Assembly: GCA_019236735.1 (NCBI GenBank)
Contig: JAFAIM010000029.1
Span: 1 to 64,000 of the forward strand
Direction: 5' to 3'
DNA: 64,000 bases
Source of the DNA: Burkholderiaceae bacterium
GTDB lineage: Bacteria; Pseudomonadota; Gammaproteobacteria; Burkholderiales; Burkholderiaceae_F
Part shown: positions 9,590-62,717 of the stretch, piece after piece
How positions within the stretch are numbered: position 1 is the first letter of the stretch
Layout of the letters: every line of letters starts with the position of its first letter
Translations under genes and position numbers: made by a program
The notes under the pieces: model-generated
Seen by the model: the letters and a program-made list of their open reading frames with translations, nothing else
Told to the model about the DNA's origin: nothing
Databases searched by the model: none

Positions 9590-11539
9590 CTAGTGGACGA
9601 CTTGCGCCGAGGCGCTCTTCTTTTCTTGCCAGATGCTGACGCTCTGCGCGAGCGACCGTCGCGCCCGCGCGAAAGCCTCATCCTTCGCACGCTGACCCAG
9701 GAAAGCATCCAGATCGCGGTGCTGTTGCTGCAACTGCCGCAACATCGGCACGAAACGGCGACACAGCTCAGGATCGAACTGAGCCTCACCGAGCAGGGCA
9801 ATCTGAGCCAGCGCCGTATCGACCGACATCGCTTCCCGGTAGCTGCGCCGATGCGTCATCGCATCGAACGCATCGGCGATTGTGACGATGCGCGCCACCA
9901 GCGGGATGGCGCGCCCCGCCAGGCGGTCGGGATAGCCTTCGCCATCCCAACGCTCGTGATGATGGCGCGCAACCTGCTCCGCTACCGTCAGCCCCGCCAG
10001 CTTGCACCGATGCAGAATCTCCGCTCCAGCCGATGCGTGCAATCGCATCACCTGCATCTCCGAGGCGCGCAACGGCCCTCGCCGGAACAGGATCGGCCCG
10101 GGCACTGTGGTTTTACCGATATCGCGCAGGCGGGCGGCGACTTCGATCGTCGTGCACGCTCGAGCGTCCAGGCCAACGGTTTCCGCCAGAAGCGACGACA
10201 ATCTGCCGACGCGGAAACAGTGCTCGCCGGATGGATCGTCCGCCGACTCGGCGATGATCGCCTCGCGCTGCAGCGGCTCAACGCTCACCTCGAGCCAACG
10301 CCGCAAAGCCTCCGGGTCGCCCCCCGCAGTTGCCAGCGCCGCAGCCGCTGTTCGCTCCTCGGCCCGGCGCGTCAGGCTGGCGGTCAGCTCGTCCGACCTG
10401 TCCACCTCCATGCCGGACGCGACCGGAAGGCCCAGCCGGTGCAAGTGCAGCTCCTGTCCCGCCAGGATCTCCATCATCCGACGCCGGCCGCCCAGACGGC
10501 TGAGCTCCTCCAACAGTTGCCTCGCCTTGTCCGACTCGCCGACGTCGTCCAACGCCACGGCGGCCGTTTCATAGATATCGTTCAGCGCGGTTACCAGAAA
10601 GTCCCAACCCTCGGCGCGAAGCTGCTCCAGGAGGGTTTCCAGCCTCGCCTTACCCGACTGGACCTTGCCGAGCGACATCTCGCAAGCGGCGACGAGCACA
10701 GTTCCACTGGCCAGACCTTCCTGCGACCCGACCGATCGAGCCATTTCCACCACGACGCGCGCCTGCCGGATCGCCTCCGCTGTTCGCCCCATGGCGAACA
10801 GCGCGCGTGCATGGTTGTTCTCGAATCTCCAGCCCTGCATCTTCACGTGCCGAGGCACTTCCTGTTCTTGGATGATCTGCTTGCTTCGCATTGCCTCGTC
10901 CAGCGCACGATTCAGCAAGGCCTCCTTAACCGGTGCGGATTCCTCTCTCAGCGCGAGTTGAGTTCGGGCATCGGCGAGATTGCCCAGCGCGAACGCACGG
11001 TTGCCCCACGCGGCGGAGTCTGTTGGAGGCGGTCTTTCCGCCAGCGCCTCCCACATCGCAATCGCCTTATGAATCTCGAAGCCCAGTGCGAACAGCGCCG
11101 CGATATTGCTCACCACCCCATCGACGGCGAGCTGCGTACCCGTCTCGATCGTCAACGCCAGTGCTTCGGCCAGCGCTTCGGAACCGGGTGAATGCTGTCC
11201 GGCCAACATCAGTGCGGTCCCCTGCATACCCAGCGCCACCCCCAGCAGAGTCCGATCGTTGGCATCTCGTGCTTTCGCGACCGCGACATCGGCTGCGCGC
11301 ACTTTGTTCCCCGCATCGCCACGGACCGATAAATAGCGCGAAATTTCGCGCAGAGCCTCTATTTGCCTGCCCGTGTCCAGTTGGGAGGGAATTTTCGCGA
11401 TCTCATCGATCAGCGAGGTCGCTCGTTCCACGCCATCGGAGATATCTGCCGGCTCTGCGCGCAACTGCGCAATGCGCTGCTCGATCGCGGACAACTCTTC
11501 GTTCGCCGCGGCCGCGGCCGAGTGTGAGTCGATTGTCAT
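9590..11539 (-). CDS. TPR-like repeat protein with degenerate HD-GYP domain
   Basis: This 649-residue protein appears soluble. Residues 1 to about 390 are helical, Ala/Glu/Arg-rich and look like TPR repeats. The C-terminal domain (about 430-630) follows the HD-GYP pattern used to hydrolyse cyclic di-GMP: MRLHASAGAEIL, RHHHERWDGEGYP and ADAFDAMT are all present. The defining HD pair, however, reads LRDIGK: the histidine is arginine (CGC at 10124-10126). Loss of this metal ligand suggests weak or no hydrolysis, possibly a nucleotide-binding or scaffold role. It converges with the two-component genes and is likely part of the same signalling neighbourhood. Confidence 0.85.
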   Translation of the reverse strand: MTIDSHSAAAAANEELSAIEQRIAQLRAEPADISDGVERATSLIDEIAKIPSQLDTGRQIEALREISRYLSVRGDAGNKVRAADVAVAKARDANDRTLLGVALGMQGTALMLAGQHSPGSEALAEALALTIETGTQLAVDGVVSNIAALFALGFEIHKAIAMWEALAERPPPTDSAAWGNRAFALGNLADARTQLALREESAPVKEALLNRALDEAMRSKQIIQEQEVPRHVKMQGWRFENNHARALFAMGRTAEAIRQARVVVEMARSVGSQEGLASGTVLVAACEMSLGKVQSGKARLETLLEQLRAEGWDFLVTALNDIYETAAVALDDVGESDKARQLLEELSRLGGRRRMMEILAGQELHLHRLGLPVASGMEVDRSDELTASLTRRAEERTAAAALATAGGDPEALRRWLEVSVEPLQREAIIAESADDPSGEHCFRVGRLSSLLAETVGLDARACTTIEVAARLRDIGKTTVPGPILFRRGPLRASEMQVMRLHASAGAEILHRCKLAGLTVAEQVARHHHERWDGEGYPDRLAGRAIPLVARIVTIADAFDAMTHRRSYREAMSVDTALAQIALLGEAQFDPELCRRFVPMLRQLQQQHRDLDAFLGQRAKDEAFARARRSLAQSVSIWQEKKSASAQVVH

Positions 11540-11628
11540 ACCGACCGGAACCGGGATTCGCCGGATCCTTTTCTACCACAAAAGCCCGCTGCAACGACGT
11601 GGTTTCGGTCGTTTCGTCCAGTCGCTCG

Positions 11629-13866
11629 TCAGGCAGAACCTACCTCATAAGCTTTGCGCTTGTCGCGAACGAGCGCGCCCAGCGCCCCGGCTACCGCACC
11701 GAACCCGCGCTCCCCACGCATCCAGCTTTGCAGGGCCTGCAGGAACTCCCATTGTCCGCGAGTCACCTGGGACCTGCGCCACTCGCCGGCCGCGTTGCGG
11801 TTGGCTTCCGCCATCGTCGGGTAGGCATGGATCGTTCCCAGCAGGCGGTTCAAACCGATGTTCTGCTTCATCGCCAGCACGAATTCGGCCAGCAGCTCGC
11901 CCGCGTGCGATCCGACGATCGTCGCGCCCAGGATGCGATCCGTTCCCGGCTTCGTGAGCACTTTCACGAAGCCTTCAGTTTCGCCATCGGCGATCGCGCG
12001 GTCCAACTCGGCAAGGGGATAGACGGTCACCTGATGGGCGAGCCCGCGCTCGCGGGCTTCCTGCTCGCTGGATCCGACTCGCGCCACTTCAGGGTCGACG
12101 AAGATTGTCCAAGGGATGACCCGGTAATCGGCGCGAAATGCGCGGAAACCGCCGAACAGCGCGTTGACCGCTGCGTACCAGGCCTGGTGGGCGGCAGTGT
12201 GGGTGAACTGGAACGGTCCGGCCACGTCGCCGCACACGGTGATGTTCGGAAATCTCGTACGCAGGAACTCATCGCTGCGGATCGTGCCGTTGCGTGCGGT
12301 TTCGATACCGAGCGTTTCCAGTCCGAGCCCCTCGGTTCGCGGTGAGCGCCCGACCGCCACCAACACCTGGTCGAATTCGATCCGCACCTCGCGCGGTTGC
12401 GCCTCGCCCTCCTTGCCGCTACGCGCCACCAGGATCTTGCGCGCACCCTCGAGCAGGAACTCGCGCGCGGTGTGACCAGTCAGCACCCGGATTCCGTCGT
12501 GCGCAAAGTGGCCGGCAACCGCTTGCGAAACCTCCGGATCCTCGCGCGCAAGGATGCGCGGCAGCATTTCGATCTGCGTGACTTGCGAGCCGAGGCGCGC
12601 GAAAGCCTGCGCCAGTTCGCAGCCGACCGGTCCGCCACCGAGCACGATCAGCCTGCGCGGCAATTCACGCAACGCCCAGACGGTATCGGACGTCAGGTAG
12701 CCGACCTGGTCGAGTCCCGGGATCGGCGGCACCGCTGGGCGAGCGCCGGAGGCGATGACGATTGCGCGCGAGGTCAGGGTCCGGGCGCCGGAACCTGCAG
12801 GACTGCCGCCGACCTCGACCGTCCAGGGTGACGCCAATTTTGCGTTGCCGCGAATGCATTCGACCCCCAGCGCGGTGTAGCGCTGTACCGAGTCGTGCGG
12901 TTCGACCGCCTGCACCACCCCGGCGACGCGCTCCATGACCCGAGCGAAATCGACCTGCGCGCTGGCACGGATTCCAAACTCGTCGGCGCGGGCGAGCTGC
13001 GATACCAGCCGCGCAGCGCGAATCAGCGCCTTGCTCGGTACGCACCCGGTGTTCAGACAATCTCCCCCCATTTTTTCGCGCTCGATCAGTGCCACGCGCG
13101 CGCGGGTGGCAGCACCGATGTAGGCGCTGACCAGGCCGGCCGAACCCGCTCCGATCACGACCAGGTTGTAGTCGAACTTGAGCGGCCGTTTCCACCCGGC
13201 GTACACGCGGTGCGCTTTCAGGGCCTCGAGCGCTCGCCGCGCCAGCAACGGGAATACGCCCAGCAGCGCAAGCGCCGCGAGCAGCCCGCGCGAGACTTGG
13301 AACTGGCCGAGCTGCGTTCCTGCGTACACGTAGACCAGCGTCGCAGGCAGCATCCCGACCTGGCTGACCCAGTAGAACGTTCGCAGCGAGATCGCGGTCA
13401 GCCCCATCGCCAGGTTGATCACAAAGAAGGGGAAGAGCGGAACCAGCCGCAGCGCGAAGAGATAAAAGGCGCCCTCGCGCCGGATTCCGTCGTCGATCGC
13501 TGCCAAGCGCTCGCTGAAACGCTGCTGAACCCAGTCCCGCAGCAGGAAGCGCGCCGCCAGCAGCGCCAGCGTGGCGCCGATGCTCGAGGCGAACGACACC
13601 AGCACGGTGCCGGTTGCTAGGCCAAACAGCGCCCCACCGGCAAGCGTCATCAACAACGCCCCCGGCAGCGACAGCGCGGCGACCGTGACATATGTGCAGA
13701 AGAACGCCGCAGCTGCGGTGACCGGGTGCGCCGCGCGCCAAACCTCGATGGCGTCCCGGTGCGCAAGGAAATCCTTCCACCGGAAAAAGCGCTGCAGATC
13801 GAGCGCGAAAAAAGCGGCCACCGCCAGTGCGATGGCTACGGCGAGCAGCAGCTTGCGGCGGCGCAT
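11629..13866 (-). CDS. VTT/TVP38-type membrane domain fused to disulfide oxidoreductase
   Basis: This 745-residue protein has two parts. Residues 1 to about 220 form a DedA/TVP38-like (VTT) membrane domain with several hydrophobic segments and the GGALFG and LRLVPLFPFFVIN signatures. Residues from about 235 form a class I pyridine nucleotide-disulfide oxidoreductase: FAD site VIGAGSAG, redox pair CLNTGCVPSK, NAD(P) site GGGPVGCELAQ, FAD site CGDVAG and a dimer-interface HAYPTMAEA. It resembles mercuric reductase or dihydrolipoamide dehydrogenase catalytic cores but is membrane-anchored and lacks an HMA domain. The substrate is unknown. I chose ATG 13866; a longer open frame to 13992 adds only non-conserved residues that overlap the divergent gene. 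Confidence 0.92.
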   Translation of the reverse strand: MRRRKLLLAVAIALAVAAFFALDLQRFFRWKDFLAHRDAIEVWRAAHPVTAAAAFFCTYVTVAALSLPGALLMTLAGGALFGLATGTVLVSFASSIGATLALLAARFLLRDWVQQRFSERLAAIDDGIRREGAFYLFALRLVPLFPFFVINLAMGLTAISLRTFYWVSQVGMLPATLVYVYAGTQLGQFQVSRGLLAALALLGVFPLLARRALEALKAHRVYAGWKRPLKFDYNLVVIGAGSAGLVSAYIGAATRARVALIEREKMGGDCLNTGCVPSKALIRAARLVSQLARADEFGIRASAQVDFARVMERVAGVVQAVEPHDSVQRYTALGVECIRGNAKLASPWTVEVGGSPAGSGARTLTSRAIVIASGARPAVPPIPGLDQVGYLTSDTVWALRELPRRLIVLGGGPVGCELAQAFARLGSQVTQIEMLPRILAREDPEVSQAVAGHFAHDGIRVLTGHTAREFLLEGARKILVARSGKEGEAQPREVRIEFDQVLVAVGRSPRTEGLGLETLGIETARNGTIRSDEFLRTRFPNITVCGDVAGPFQFTHTAAHQAWYAAVNALFGGFRAFRADYRVIPWTIFVDPEVARVGSSEQEARERGLAHQVTVYPLAELDRAIADGETEGFVKVLTKPGTDRILGATIVGSHAGELLAEFVLAMKQNIGLNRLLGTIHAYPTMAEANRNAAGEWRRSQVTRGQWEFLQALQSWMRGERGFGAVAGALGALVRDKRKAYEVGSA

Positions 13867-57775: not shown

Positions 57776-59248
57776 TCAGCGCTTGCCCGCGTTCCGCACG
57801 TCCCGCAGGAATGTCTCGCGGTCCTCCTCGGTGGGGATTCCTTCGGCTACCAGCCGATAAAACTGGGCCTTGTCGTGAGCTTTGGCCGCTGCGCTCTTGA
57901 CAATCACTCGCGATAGCGGCCCGATCAGCGATCCGAGCAACTGCGATGCGCGCTGGATATCCTGCTCCGTCAGGGCCGTTGCCGCCGGCGCCGGTGCTGC
58001 AACGTCGACAGAGGCGGGGCCGGCTTTGCTGTCGGTCGGCGGTTTGCCGGTGCGCGGATCGACTCGTGCAGGCACCGGTTGCGGGGTCGGTGCTGTTGCG
58101 CGCCCCGGCGCCAGCAGGTCTCGCACTCCTGCCAGGAAGGCTTGGCGCTCTTCGGTCGACCCGAGCTCGCTCGCGACCGTGTCGATCAACGTCTTCAAAT
58201 TGGCGCTTTGCTTGGCAGCTCGCCGCACCATTACCCGCGCCAGCGGCCCCACCGCAACGGCAAGTTGTTTCTCCAGCCGGGCGAGCACATGCGGATCCCA
58301 CGCAAGTCCTCCTGTTGGAACGCCAACGGCCGGGGAGGGCGCGGATGCCTCGGGCTTCGGTGCGGCGACAGGGGTACTGTGGACGGCGATCAAGGTGTCG
58401 TCGGGCGTCTGTGCCTGCGCCGACTGTTGATAAGCGGCCAGGATCGCGTCGCGAAACTCCGCCGCGCTTTGGAAGCGCTGCTCCGGCATCTTTGCCATCG
58501 CGCGGCGCGCCACCGGCTCGAAATGGGCAAGACCGGGATGCTCCGGCTGCGCAGCGATCGGCGGCGGCTCCTCGTGGCAGACGCTGTACATCACTTCCTG
58601 GGTCGAACCCAGGAAGGCGGGCCTGCCAGCCAGCATCTCGTACATCACGACGCCGGCGGCGAACAGGTCGGCGCGATGATCGACCGGCGCCTTACGGTAC
58701 ATCTCGGGGGCGATGTATCCCGGAGTTCCCATCACCGACGCGACCTGGGTCAGCTCGGAATCGTCGACCCGCGCGATTCCGAAGTCAGCGATCTTCACCC
58801 GCCCGTCGCTGATCAGGATCAAATTGGCCGGCTTGATGTCGCGATGCCACACCCCGCGCTCGTGCGCATGCCCGAGCGCCTCCAGCAACTGCACCATCAC
58901 GCTGACGATTTGGTCGGCATCGAAGACGGCTTTGTTCGCGAAATAGTGCCGCAGCGTGCGGCCCTCGACGAACTCCATCGCGATATAGGCGCAATCGTTG
59001 GCCTGCCCGAATTCGTACACGCCGACGATTCCCGGGTGCGCCAGGCGTCCGGCCGCTTGCGCCTCATGGCGGAAGCGTGCGCTCATCAGATCGCCGGTGG
59101 TCTCCTGCTCCAGAAGTTGCGAGTGGATCGTCTTGATCGCAACAGGGCGACGGATGTCCGGATCGAACGCCTTGTAGACGGCGCCCATCGCGCCTTTTCC
59201 GAGGACTTCGGAGACGACGTACTTGCCGAAGCGTTCGGGCTGCTCCAC
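57776..59248 (-). CDS. Eukaryotic-like Ser/Thr protein kinase with duplicated C-terminal domain
   Basis: About 490 residues, cytosolic. The kinase domain (about 8-275) has P-loop GKGAMGAVY, VAIKTI (Lys), HRDIKPANL, DFGIAR and GTPGYIAPEM, all catalytic elements intact. After a linker, two homologous segments of about 50 residues follow (near 320-372 and 430-485): each has a GPL-RV core (AVGPLARVMVRRAA and LIGPLSRVIVKSAA), then about 20 residues later an acidic T-E-E-x-x-x-F end (GSTEERQAFL and PTEEDRETFL). There is no membrane helix or extracellular sensor, so the signal may come from the heme protein encoded just upstream. I chose GTG 59248; a TTG at 59302 would overlap the sensor gene. Confidence 0.9.
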   Translation of the reverse strand: MEQPERFGKYVVSEVLGKGAMGAVYKAFDPDIRRPVAIKTIHSQLLEQETTGDLMSARFRHEAQAAGRLAHPGIVGVYEFGQANDCAYIAMEFVEGRTLRHYFANKAVFDADQIVSVMVQLLEALGHAHERGVWHRDIKPANLILISDGRVKIADFGIARVDDSELTQVASVMGTPGYIAPEMYRKAPVDHRADLFAAGVVMYEMLAGRPAFLGSTQEVMYSVCHEEPPPIAAQPEHPGLAHFEPVARRAMAKMPEQRFQSAAEFRDAILAAYQQSAQAQTPDDTLIAVHSTPVAAPKPEASAPSPAVGVPTGGLAWDPHVLARLEKQLAVAVGPLARVMVRRAAKQSANLKTLIDTVASELGSTEERQAFLAGVRDLLAPGRATAPTPQPVPARVDPRTGKPPTDSKAGPASVDVAAPAPAATALTEQDIQRASQLLGSLIGPLSRVIVKSAAAKAHDKAQFYRLVAEGIPTEEDRETFLRDVRNAGKR

Positions 59249-59291
59249 GCAGGTTCTGCTTTCAGGTCCGTGTCGCCCGCACTCCCGCCCG

Positions 59292-60164
59292 TCACTCGCC
59301 AAGCATCTTCATCGCGCCCACGATGCTCTTGCGCATCCGGCCGAAGGCAGCCGCCAGCTCGGAGATCTCGTCGCGCGACGTGGCGGCGAACGCTGGCGCC
59401 TCTAGGTCGCCTTTGCTGACCCGGTCGGCCACCGCCGATAGTTTGGTGACCGGCTGGATGACGATTCGCCACAGCATCAGGTTCAGCAGCAAGCCGACGG
59501 CGATGAACACCCCAGCCACCGACAGCATGAAGTGCTTGAACGCCATGTTGGCGCGCGCGGTGGGAATTGCACTCGGCACGGAAATGAGCTGCGCGCCGAT
59601 CACTTCGTTGAGCTTCCATCCGAACCCGTTGGCGCTGCCGTACTGCTGGACCAGCGTCGCGGGCGCCACTTCCGCTGAGGTATGGCACACCAGGCAGTTC
59701 GGATCGACGATTCGCAGCGGCCGCGCTACGTAATACGACGGGCCGTCCGGGGTCTGCCGCTCGCCGGTGATCTCTTTGCGGTCGGCGTTGTTGCGGAACG
59801 ACTGAATGATGTCGGCCTCCCAGTCCACCGCGCGGTCGCGTGGATTGGTCGGGTTCAGCGCCGCCTCCTTGTACGAGAACTCCGGATGGCGCTTGTGCAT
59901 GTCGTTGAATACTTCGGTGGCGGCATACGCCGGGACCGTCTGCGGCAGGAACAGGAATTTCATCTGGATGTCGAGCAGCGGCCGGATCTGCGCGACCGTG
60001 TAGTTGCGCTGCGCGATGGCCGATTCGAGCAGCAGGCGCGCGTCCTGCGACACCTCTTCGCGAGCGTTTCGCTGCAACTCATCCCAGGCGACGTAGCCGA
60101 TCGACGCCAGGCCCAACGCAAAGAAGGCCAGGAAGGCCAGGTTGAACTTCGCCAGCAGCTTCAT
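59292..60164 (-). CDS. DUF3365 (Tll0287-like) heme c sensor with HAMP domain
   Basis: A 290-residue membrane protein: one N-terminal helix (about 8-28), a periplasmic Tll0287-like domain with a heme c site CLVCH near residue 156, a second helix (about 213-233) and a cytosolic HAMP segment (IQPVTKLSAVADRVSKGDLEAPAF) ending in a short helix. It has no kinase or methyl-accepting domain, so output must go through a partner; the Ser/Thr kinase encoded next is the natural candidate. The heme suggests sensing of redox state or a gas. I chose ATG 60164 with GGAGG seven to ten bases upstream. Confidence 0.9.
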   Translation of the reverse strand: MKLLAKFNLAFLAFFALGLASIGYVAWDELQRNAREEVSQDARLLLESAIAQRNYTVAQIRPLLDIQMKFLFLPQTVPAYAATEVFNDMHKRHPEFSYKEAALNPTNPRDRAVDWEADIIQSFRNNADRKEITGERQTPDGPSYYVARPLRIVDPNCLVCHTSAEVAPATLVQQYGSANGFGWKLNEVIGAQLISVPSAIPTARANMAFKHFMLSVAGVFIAVGLLLNLMLWRIVIQPVTKLSAVADRVSKGDLEAPAFAATSRDEISELAAAFGRMRKSIVGAMKMLGE

Positions 60165-60419: not shown

Positions 60420-61925
60420 ATGAACCGCTGGACCGTCGCCTTGGGCGGCATGCTGCTGATGATCTGCCTGGGCACGATCTATTCGTGGAGCCTGTTCACG
60501 CAGCCGCTGATCGCTTGCTTCGGGTGGTCCACTACCACCACCACGTTCGCCTTCTCGCTCGCAATCTTCTGCCTCGGCCCCGGCGCGCTCGTCGGCGGGC
60601 GCTTGCAAGATCGGATCGGGCCGCGCCAAGTCGCGATCACCAGCGCTGTTCTATGGGGCGGGGCCAACGTGTTGGCCGGCCTGGGAACGCCATACCTGGG
60701 CGCGGGCTGGCTGTGCTTGACGTACGGCGTGGCAGGCGGAATCGGGGTCGGTATGGGGTACGTGACGGCTGTGACGGCCGTCACCAAGTGGTTTCCGAAC
60801 CGGCGCGGGCTGGGAAGCGGGATCGCCGTGACCGGTTTCGGCCTGGGAGCAGTGATCTACAACCTGGCGGTCAAGAGTTTGCCGTCGTTCCGGGCAGCGG
60901 CAGCCGAGGCAGCGCGCTGTGCGAAGGCGGCGCACGCCGGTGGCGTCACGCGGCTGCTCGGAGCCGGCCAGATGCACGCGGTGATGAACGTGCTGACGCT
61001 CTCCGGCATCGCCTTCGTCGTGCTGGGACTGCTGGCAGCGTCGCTGCTGGCCAATCCGACCGCGCCCGCGCAGCCTACGCAGCCCACGCGGCCCGGCAAA
61101 GCGAAGGCGGCGGCTGCGCGGCACTCGTACACGACGCGCCAGATGCTTGCGACCCGGCAGTTCTATCTGCTGTGGGCGACGCTGTTCTTGAACGTCACCG
61201 CCGGCATCATCCTGATCAGCAATGCGCTGCCGATCCTGCAGGAGCTCACCGGTGCTTCGCCGGCCGCGGTCGCAGCGGCGTACGGCGGTGTGGCGCTGTT
61301 CAACACGCTCGGCCGCTTCTTCTGGGGGGCACTTTCCGACCGTATCGGCCCCACCCGCTCGTTCTGTCTGATCTTCCTCCTGCAGGCGGTCGTGTTCTTC
61401 TTGCTGGGCAGCGCGCACACGCTGGCGTGGGCGCTCGTGGCGTACGCAGTCGTTCTGCTGTGCTACGGAGGCGGCTTCGGAACGATGCCGTCGATGAACG
61501 CCGACTACTTCGGCACCCGGCACATGGGGGCCAACTACGGCGCGCTGCTGACTGCCTGGGGTGCCGCTGGCGTGGCGGGCCCACTGTTCGTGGCCGCGGC
61601 AAACGACGCGAACGGAGCATTTAGCGGCGCGCTGCCGCTGGTGTCGATCGTTCTGGCGGCGGCAACGATCCTTCCGCTGCTGACAAGGAAGCCTGCCGCG
61701 CGCATCAGGCGGTGCGCGGCGATTTTCCTGCCGAGTTTCACGCCGGGCTTCGCGCGGCTCGATGCGACGATTGCCAAGATGGCAGCCGTGATGCGGGAAC
61801 CGACAGCGAGCCGGATGCCGTTGGTATCGCCGGGGCCGTCGACGATCACCGGCTTCGGAGTTCCTGCACGGACCCAGCGCGTTGCATTGCACCCCGCAGT
61901 GCAGACTTCAGATCGGCGTTGCTAA
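60420..61925 (+). CDS. MFS transporter, oxalate/formate antiporter-like (OFA)
   Basis: A 501-residue transporter with 12 predicted helices in two halves split near residue 220. GTIYSWSLFTQPL and the motif GRLQDRIGPRQ in the first half, and GALSDRIGPTRSF in the second, are typical of the OFA branch (oxalate/formate or lactate/monocarboxylate exchange). The substrate cannot be told. The last 65 or so residues (after about 435) are beyond the usual end, with an unrelated composition, and the final 18 bases overlap the convergent DUF2182 gene. The tail is probably a read-through extension. Confidence 0.88.
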   Translation: MNRWTVALGGMLLMICLGTIYSWSLFTQPLIACFGWSTTTTTFAFSLAIFCLGPGALVGGRLQDRIGPRQVAITSAVLWGGANVLAGLGTPYLGAGWLCLTYGVAGGIGVGMGYVTAVTAVTKWFPNRRGLGSGIAVTGFGLGAVIYNLAVKSLPSFRAAAAEAARCAKAAHAGGVTRLLGAGQMHAVMNVLTLSGIAFVVLGLLAASLLANPTAPAQPTQPTRPGKAKAAAARHSYTTRQMLATRQFYLLWATLFLNVTAGIILISNALPILQELTGASPAAVAAAYGGVALFNTLGRFFWGALSDRIGPTRSFCLIFLLQAVVFFLLGSAHTLAWALVAYAVVLLCYGGGFGTMPSMNADYFGTRHMGANYGALLTAWGAAGVAGPLFVAAANDANGAFSGALPLVSIVLAAATILPLLTRKPAARIRRCAAIFLPSFTPGFARLDATIAKMAAVMREPTASRMPLVSPGPSTITGFGVPARTQRVALHPAVQTSDRRC

Positions 61926-62717
61926 GCCAATCAGGTCAAGCGCGCCGACCACGATCAGCAGCACGCCTGCGGCGCGCGCGGGCAAAGCGGGGCGCGCGGC
62001 CAAGCGCTCGCCGGTGATCGCGACCGCGATCAAGATCATTGCGGTGGGATTCATCACCCCGAGCGCTAAAAAGGCTGCCATCAGCGCGCAGCAGCAGCGC
62101 CCGCAGTCGACTCCTAGCGTAACGCCATGGCGCCACGCAGCGGCCACGCTCGCAGGCCGCACGCTGCAGCAGTTGGCCAGTGCGCGGCATCGCTCGAGCT
62201 GCCGCGCCTTCCACGGCGAGCATTGAACCCAGCCGGCGAGCACGAGGGTGAGGCCCGCGACGAAAGGCTCCGTCCTCGCGATCGGCGCCGACTGCATCTG
62301 TCCGGCGGCGATCGCTGCGCCCAACGGATAGATCGCCGCACCGATACCGGCCCAGACGGCGAAATACCCGATCGCGACGATAGTCGTCAGCGTTGCAGCG
62401 CGGATCCGATCGGCGCGCGTGCGCGCCAGGTCGTACGGTGCGTACACCGCAAGAGGCGGCACGAGCGCCGGCAGCATCATCGCAATCATCATCACGAGCC
62501 ACATGATTTCGAACGAGACGCCGGAGCCACCCCACGACTGGCCCGGCATCCTCATCCACGCCATCGACATCGTCCAGTTGCCCGGCATCGACATTCCGCC
62601 GGACATCGAGGCGCACATCAGGGCGGTGGCGCCGGCGCTCGCGGCGAGCAGCAGCGCGCACACCGCGAGCAGTCCGCGCTGCTTGCTCCAGATCAAAGAA
62701 GAGACGTTCGACGTCAT
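61908..62717 (-). CDS. DUF2182 membrane protein
   Basis: A 269-residue polytopic protein with about seven hydrophobic segments, a Met-rich N-terminal loop (CASMSGGMSMPGNWTMSM) and the family sequence FEIMWLVMMIAMMLP. A Cys-rich GVDCGRCCCALM lies near residue 205. The family is described as predicted metal-binding membrane proteins; transport or sensing of metal is unproven. The start directly abuts the DUF899 stop (TAAATG), so the two are coupled. Confidence 0.86.
   Translation of the reverse strand: MTSNVSSLIWSKQRGLLAVCALLLAASAGATALMCASMSGGMSMPGNWTMSMAWMRMPGQSWGGSGVSFEIMWLVMMIAMMLPALVPPLAVYAPYDLARTRADRIRAATLTTIVAIGYFAVWAGIGAAIYPLGAAIAAGQMQSAPIARTEPFVAGLTLVLAGWVQCSPWKARQLERCRALANCCSVRPASVAAAWRHGVTLGVDCGRCCCALMAAFLALGVMNPTAMILIAVAITGERLAARPALPARAAGVLLIVVGALDLIGLATPI

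Follow-up and report, generated by a model that had tools for sequence, protein, structure and literature searches.

Two adjoining genes on the reverse strand of the window (the whole 64,000-nucleotide stretch of Burkholderiaceae DNA analysed here) encode a predicted heme c membrane receptor that ends at its HAMP domain (59292-60164) and a soluble Ser/Thr kinase that ends in two small helical, STAC-like units (57776-59302). The receptor-kinase pair is tightly conserved, and what stays constant beside this type of output-less HAMP receptor is the helical unit. We consider it likely, with a probability of roughly 70%, that the two genes make up a split receptor, in which a heme sensor of NO or redox state would drive a Ser/Thr kinase through docking of the STAC-like units on HAMP. 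Within this reading we infer the physical contact, the direction of signalling, the identity of the ligand and the substrates of the kinase.

Anatomy of the receptor and the kinase

The receptor (290 aa; this and all features below lie on the minus strand) is composed of TM1, an sCache_heme domain (DUF3365/Tll0287), TM2 and HAMP. PF11845 was matched with 137.2 bits over residues 31-197 (Pfam cut-off 24.1) and HAMP with 46.8 bits over residues 231-281 (59322-59474), and hydrophobic stretches occur near residues 1-27 and 207-239 and nowhere else. The heme c attachment motif CLVCH (residues 157-161; 59682-59696) is invariant in all 32 aligned receptors; Cys157 and Cys160, the two cysteines of the CXXCH motif, are the only ones in the protein, which has no axial Cys. 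In Foldseek the sensor domain matched the Tll0287 structure 5b82, a Cache-type fold, with an E-value of 1.5e-6 and a probability of 1.00. The protein stops nine residues past HAMP, leaving this domain as its sole cytosolic part, as in receptors of the Af1503 type. The initial annotation, whose coordinates for both genes were correct, had described a DUF3365-HAMP protein with a CxxCH site and no output domain, in full agreement with these features. The end of the receptor is formed by a conserved post-HAMP tail, RMRxSLxxAMKML (residues 276-290; 59295-59339), and by eye similar tails are present in unrelated HAMP-ended receptors. A scan for promoters and terminators gave no signal above chance.

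The kinase frame measures 508 aa when counted from TTG 59302, and in that case its opening overlaps the 3' end of the receptor gene. Judged by eye, the family pattern favours GTG 59248, about 43 bp past the receptor stop, as the likelier start. The protein kinase domain spans about residues 26-285 (58448-59227), with a Pfam match to PF00069 of 171.8 bits at residues 28-244, and its Hanks-type catalytic motifs, HRDIKPAN and DFG, are intact. No hydrophobic segment was found anywhere in the product of 57776-59302, which bears out the earlier view of this protein as a kinase lacking both a sensor and a membrane anchor.

The last third of the kinase, overlooked in the initial annotation, consists of two copies of a helical unit of ~53 residues: unit 1 at 58130-58285 (VGPLARVMVRRAA) and unit 2 at 57803-57958 (IGPLSRVIVKSAA). 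The consensus of the unit family, likewise of ~53 residues, reads LARAERLLARHIGPIARVLVRRAARRATDLEELVEALAEEIPDPAERAAFLAR, and no Pfam model gave a credible match to the unit. AlphaFold2 (81 rows) predicted both copies as confident helices, with pLDDT > 90 in most blocks, joined by a linker of low confidence; unit 2 was modelled as four helices, and in unit 1 helices 1 and 2 were merged. A GPxA motif is near-invariant in the family. GP is invariant in the unit alignments A2, A3 and A8, and the first residue of the motif is often V or I in place of L; the two window units carry VGPLARV and IGPLSRV as their versions of the STAC motif LGPx(x)A.

Elsewhere in the window, at 61908-62717 (minus strand), a PpoB2 family protein (a copper chaperone in Pfam) is encoded near an MFS transporter gene; it is unrelated to the pair.

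Conservation of the pair and its constant element

Conservation of the gene pair across genomes, which the initial annotation had proposed to check, proved to be tight. With eight receptors as queries, genome contigs yielded 80 named loci; almost all belong to Betaproteobacteria and a few to Gammaproteobacteria and Acidobacteriota. A unit-bearing gene adjoins the receptor in 79 of 79 testable loci, on the same strand in 77 of the 80 and convergently in two (L098 and L099); the one remaining locus (L055) is cut by a contig end. The order of the two genes varies, the kinase being located after the receptor, before it or convergent with it. Grouped by similarity to the kinase domain of the window, 63 partner kinases are PknB-like, all of them after the receptor, and 14 are of another type (eight after, five before and one convergent); HRD and DFG are kept in all 77. 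The window's genome harbours a second, diverged receptor-kinase pair (G000 contig C77, about 10186-12600; L003), and pairs with the same units were found on plasmids of Caballeronia, Paraburkholderia, Rhodovulum and Skermanella. When the unit profile was run on a phylum-wide draw, few matches emerged, and the three credible new ones among them (G701, G802 and G805) were receptor-kinase pairs again; a match in G849 (E 5e-4) was judged to be noise.

Some partner kinases are longer. One of them (L073, 5874-8456) has, by eye, a degenerate cyclase-like stretch between the kinase domain and the units and is possibly a fusion of two outputs; going by length and kinase type, L078, L079, L083, L090, L107 and L110 are probably similar.

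The kinase gene is the usual neighbour of the receptor, as first proposed, but the constant element is the C-terminal unit. The kinase was dropped as the constant partner, since at some loci it is replaced by unit proteins with cyclase-homology, ACT-like or DUF4388-like domains. Altogether, the outputs that carry the unit comprise two types of kinase as well as cyclase-homology, DUF4388-like, receiver-like and ACT-like domains. Cyclase-homology proteins adjoin the heme receptor at eight loci (L053, L062, L091, L112, L113, L115, L116 and L136), and PF00211 was confirmed in all four that were scanned; the matches behind the remaining types are weak (ACT-like in L135, DUF4388 in L137, receiver in L244). 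Inspected by eye, the cyclase-homology proteins seem to keep the two metal aspartates and to have replaced the usual substrate lysine, which makes their activity uncertain.

Among 369 genomes of the class, 25 encode both the receptor (scored as present at > 150 bits) and the unit, one the receptor alone, six the unit alone and 337 neither; Fisher's test gives 4.5e-32, a p value that overstates independence because the genomes are related. Four of the six unit-only genomes (G074, G102, G373 and G147) have the unit beside another HAMP-ended protein, with the HAMP end alone on the contig in G147. The locus in G350 is cut by a contig end, and the match in G249 is probably noise.

HAMP-ended receptors and their probable link to STAC

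The partnership extends beyond the heme receptor. In the window's genome, which has 14 HAMP matches, all three proteins that end at HAMP adjoin a unit gene, compared with none, within 1.5 kb flanks, of the eleven other HAMP genes, whose products run well past HAMP and by eye are mostly histidine kinases and chemoreceptors. Searched against the same genome, the unit profile matched exactly the three partner proteins. We then turned to a second set, 20 more matches of the receptor profile that cover HAMP only and were chosen before inspection: the five HAMP-ended receptors (L248, L249, L250, L251 and L260) all adjoin a unit gene, as opposed to none of the 15 with an internal HAMP (p 6.4e-5, with the genomes being related). 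The profile behind this set favours window-like HAMP tails, so that the rule covers this type of HAMP and not every HAMP-ended protein. No adjacent unit gene was found at the HAMP-ended DUF3365 receptors L177, L184 and L195 (the last cyanobacterial), and no HAMP neighbour was seen for the unit proteins L178, L238, L240, L241, L242, L243 and L247.

The other HAMP-ended receptors beside unit genes have dCache or other sensors, and therefore the heme domain is not the link. For instance, an output-less dCache-HAMP receptor in the window's genome (G000 contig C21; L176, 5076-6988) adjoins a protein that is weakly DUF4388-like and ends in a single unit. We favour contact through the HAMP end of the receptor: judging by gene content, HAMP-ended receptors appear to have the partner whatever their sensor, and those with an internal HAMP do not.

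Several architectures around these loci are worth recording. One HAMP-ended receptor (L260, 287-1408) has an N-terminal zinc-ribbon match ahead of its first membrane segment, and the unit protein next to it a weak winged-helix match. A SulP-type transporter with a STAS domain (L242, 3493-5463) bears one unit at its end, recalling the link between STAC and transporters. In the cyanobacterium Kovacikia, a DUF3365-HAMP protein (L196, 3893-5473) runs on, by eye, into an apparent cyclic-nucleotide-binding domain.

Both halves of the pair lead to one known archaeal gene pair. The top PDB match of the receptor profile is the HAMP of Af1503 (E 3.5e-11). For the unit model, the top PDB fold match is Af1502 of Archaeoglobus (5A1Q), by Foldseek as well as by VIA-align, with 2.7 A over 60 of 68 residues and a Z of 6.1 that is within the chance range for helical bundles; the Foldseek E-value of 1.1 is weak if taken singly. 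Af1502 is also the best of 177,635 PDB sequences for the unit profile A8, built from the units of other receptors' partners, though the match is weak (E 0.066), as is that of profile A3 (E 0.7). The alignment between the unit profile and Af1502 takes in KKEIGPIAKIF. Af1503 is a receptor without effector that has nothing but HAMP in the cytosol. Af1502, translationally coupled to it, is a four-helix bundle with the LGPx(x)A motif and the founding member of STAC (PMC4834066). The STAC bundle consists of two alpha-hairpins, and its motif joins helices 1 and 2.

Each match alone is weak to moderate, but chance would hardly lead both halves independently to a single known gene pair. Because both match Af1503/Af1502, we label the unit STAC-like on the strength of profiles and models, short of full STAC membership. 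The unit genes are coupled genomically to HAMP-ended receptors, a trait of stand-alone STAC. The fusion between an SLC5 transporter and two-component domains that marks multidomain STAC is absent from the window, and stand-alone STAC proteins lack it as well; among the unit proteins, one SulP-STAS fusion (L242) and one weakly receiver-like fusion (L244) were seen. SLC5-STAC kinases were sought on plasmids, and none were present among the matches listed.

Proposed mechanism and related systems

We propose that the covalent c-type heme predicted in the periplasmic Cache domain would sense NO as the most likely ligand, or perhaps redox state. The heme event would shift the Cache domain and TM2, upon which HAMP, the end of the receptor, would change state. 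The two C-terminal STAC-like units would dock the soluble kinase on the HAMP dimer and hold it at the membrane, and the state of HAMP would switch or position the docked kinase. The STAC domain of CbrA lies packed beneath the transporter and has been proposed to relay its motion (PMC13022988), which fits the relay role assigned here; CbrA or CrbS without STAC showed no obvious change in growth (PMC5715377), which counts against it.

As for the ligand, a 2026 preprint has reassigned DUF3365 to the Cache domains and describes its heme c as covalently bound (PMC12889525). Its DUF3365-HAMP protein from Pseudomonas azotoformans (WP_033902098) has the same plan as the window receptor, with two TM helices, sCache_heme, a cytoplasmic HAMP, no output and no axial Cys; it is a dimer, releases NO with a koff of 6.25e-4 per s and does not form a stable oxy complex (PMC12889525). 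The main text of the preprint does not contain the word "serine", and it describes no output partner for this protein, in which respect the window pair differs. The P. azotoformans locus gave no profile match among 148 Pseudomonadaceae genomes and two further genera, a sample in which the main Pseudomonas genus is probably under-represented; the DUF3365 matches in this search were mostly short frames without HAMP. By analogy with the P. azotoformans protein, our best guess is that NO is a better candidate ligand of the window receptor than generic redox.

The same split receptor could nevertheless respond to the redox state of its heme, or to a ligand other than NO, a serious possibility to which we give somewhat less than even odds. 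Redox is the frame in which the heme c sensors GSU0582 and GSU0935 and stand-alone DUF3365 proteins are discussed, the heme autoxidises readily and no NO-related gene is linked to the window pair; conversely, in the one protein of this plan that has been measured the kinetics of NO binding are sensor-like, and it forms no stable oxy complex. That the unit might be a small helical bundle of separate origin, similar to Af1502 by convergence and perhaps still docking on HAMP, would be in line with how common four-helix bundles are and with a Z that their chance range includes. We regard it as unlikely, given that the GPxA motif occupies the same place in the unit and in Af1502, that Af1502 leads the PDB by sequence as well, and that the genomic link to a HAMP-ended receptor is the same.

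Even with a genuine STAC-like unit, the two genes might be co-inherited and co-expressed without any contact between their products, the units serving for self-association or substrate binding and the receptor acting elsewhere or being only a substrate. A conserved neighbourhood is no proof of contact, some unit proteins were seen apart from any HAMP gene, Af1502 alone is monomeric (PMC4834066) and what STAC does has been described as unknown (PMC5715377). Nevertheless, the varying gene order and the fact that unrelated outputs with the unit have only the HAMP-ended receptor in common make this arrangement quite unlikely. It is very improbable that the kinase is a stand-alone anti-phage kinase of the PD-T4-6 type with the receptor as an incidental neighbour. 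PADLOC models of PD-T4-6 score up to 289.7 bits, but none of their matches goes beyond the generic kinase domain, models of PknB and StpK7 score comparably while staying below threshold, and the constant neighbour is a heme receptor; the PD-T4-6 identity was dropped on the first of these grounds.

PpkA-type Ser/Thr kinases regulate type VI secretion, PpkA itself being membrane-anchored, unlike the window kinase. Of five annotated proteobacterial plasmids, four have the pair in or beside type VI secretion genes. These pairs (L191, L192, L194 and L197, on Caballeronia, Paraburkholderia and Skermanella plasmids) are accompanied by tagF, tssM, tssB/C, hcp and tssH, and one of them also by a PP2C phosphatase gene. 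The heme sensor of the plasmid pairs may feed Ser/Thr phosphorylation control of type VI secretion; the window pair is not flanked by type VI secretion genes.

HAMP domains are textbook relays between fused domains. The split receptor suggests a plug-and-socket form of bacterial signalling, known until now mainly as an archaeal oddity. It seems moderately probable that STAC-like units are general readers of HAMP output and define a class of split receptors, in which HAMP-ended sensors would be served by interchangeable soluble outputs, the window pair representing the form with heme c, probable NO sensing and a Ser/Thr kinase. The pairing proposes an answer both to effector-less HAMP-ended receptors such as Af1503 and to the role of STAC, and ordinary bacterial gene pairs become test cases for the HAMP-STAC question. 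It also offers the recently described Cache proteins with c-type heme and NO binding a candidate for their missing output, and suggests a possible route from a periplasmic gas signal to Ser/Thr phosphorylation, in some species within type VI secretion clusters.

HAMP-ended receptors with a STAC neighbour were already known from archaea (PMC4834066), and bacteria were known to have STAC placed between SLC5 and either histidine kinases or GGDEF (PMC5715377). In the literature searched, which did not include the original STAC paper (J Mol Biol 2015), neither a STAC domain attached to a Ser/Thr kinase nor an output for HAMP-ended receptors came up. The closest known system is Af1503/Af1502 of Archaeoglobus fulgidus (PDB 4gn0/4cq4, 5A1Q; PMC4834066), where, as in the window, a HAMP-ended receptor without effector is followed by the gene of a small helical domain that contains a GPx(x)A motif; the coupling of the genes is translational there and nearly so in the window. 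Af1502, however, is an archaeal stand-alone protein of 68 aa without output, whereas the window has two copies of the unit as part of a Ser/Thr kinase; transport genes often lie near the archaeal pair, and the window sensor, unlike that of Af1503, is a predicted heme c Cache domain. In the STAC transceptors CbrA and CrbS, a four-helix STAC lies between a membrane signal source and a kinase (PMC13022988, PMC5715377), a position like the one proposed for the window unit. Their STAC is internal and fused to a 13-TM SLC5 transporter and histidine kinase domains, whereas the window unit sits at the C-terminus of a soluble Ser/Thr kinase and would work with a HAMP receptor encoded separately.
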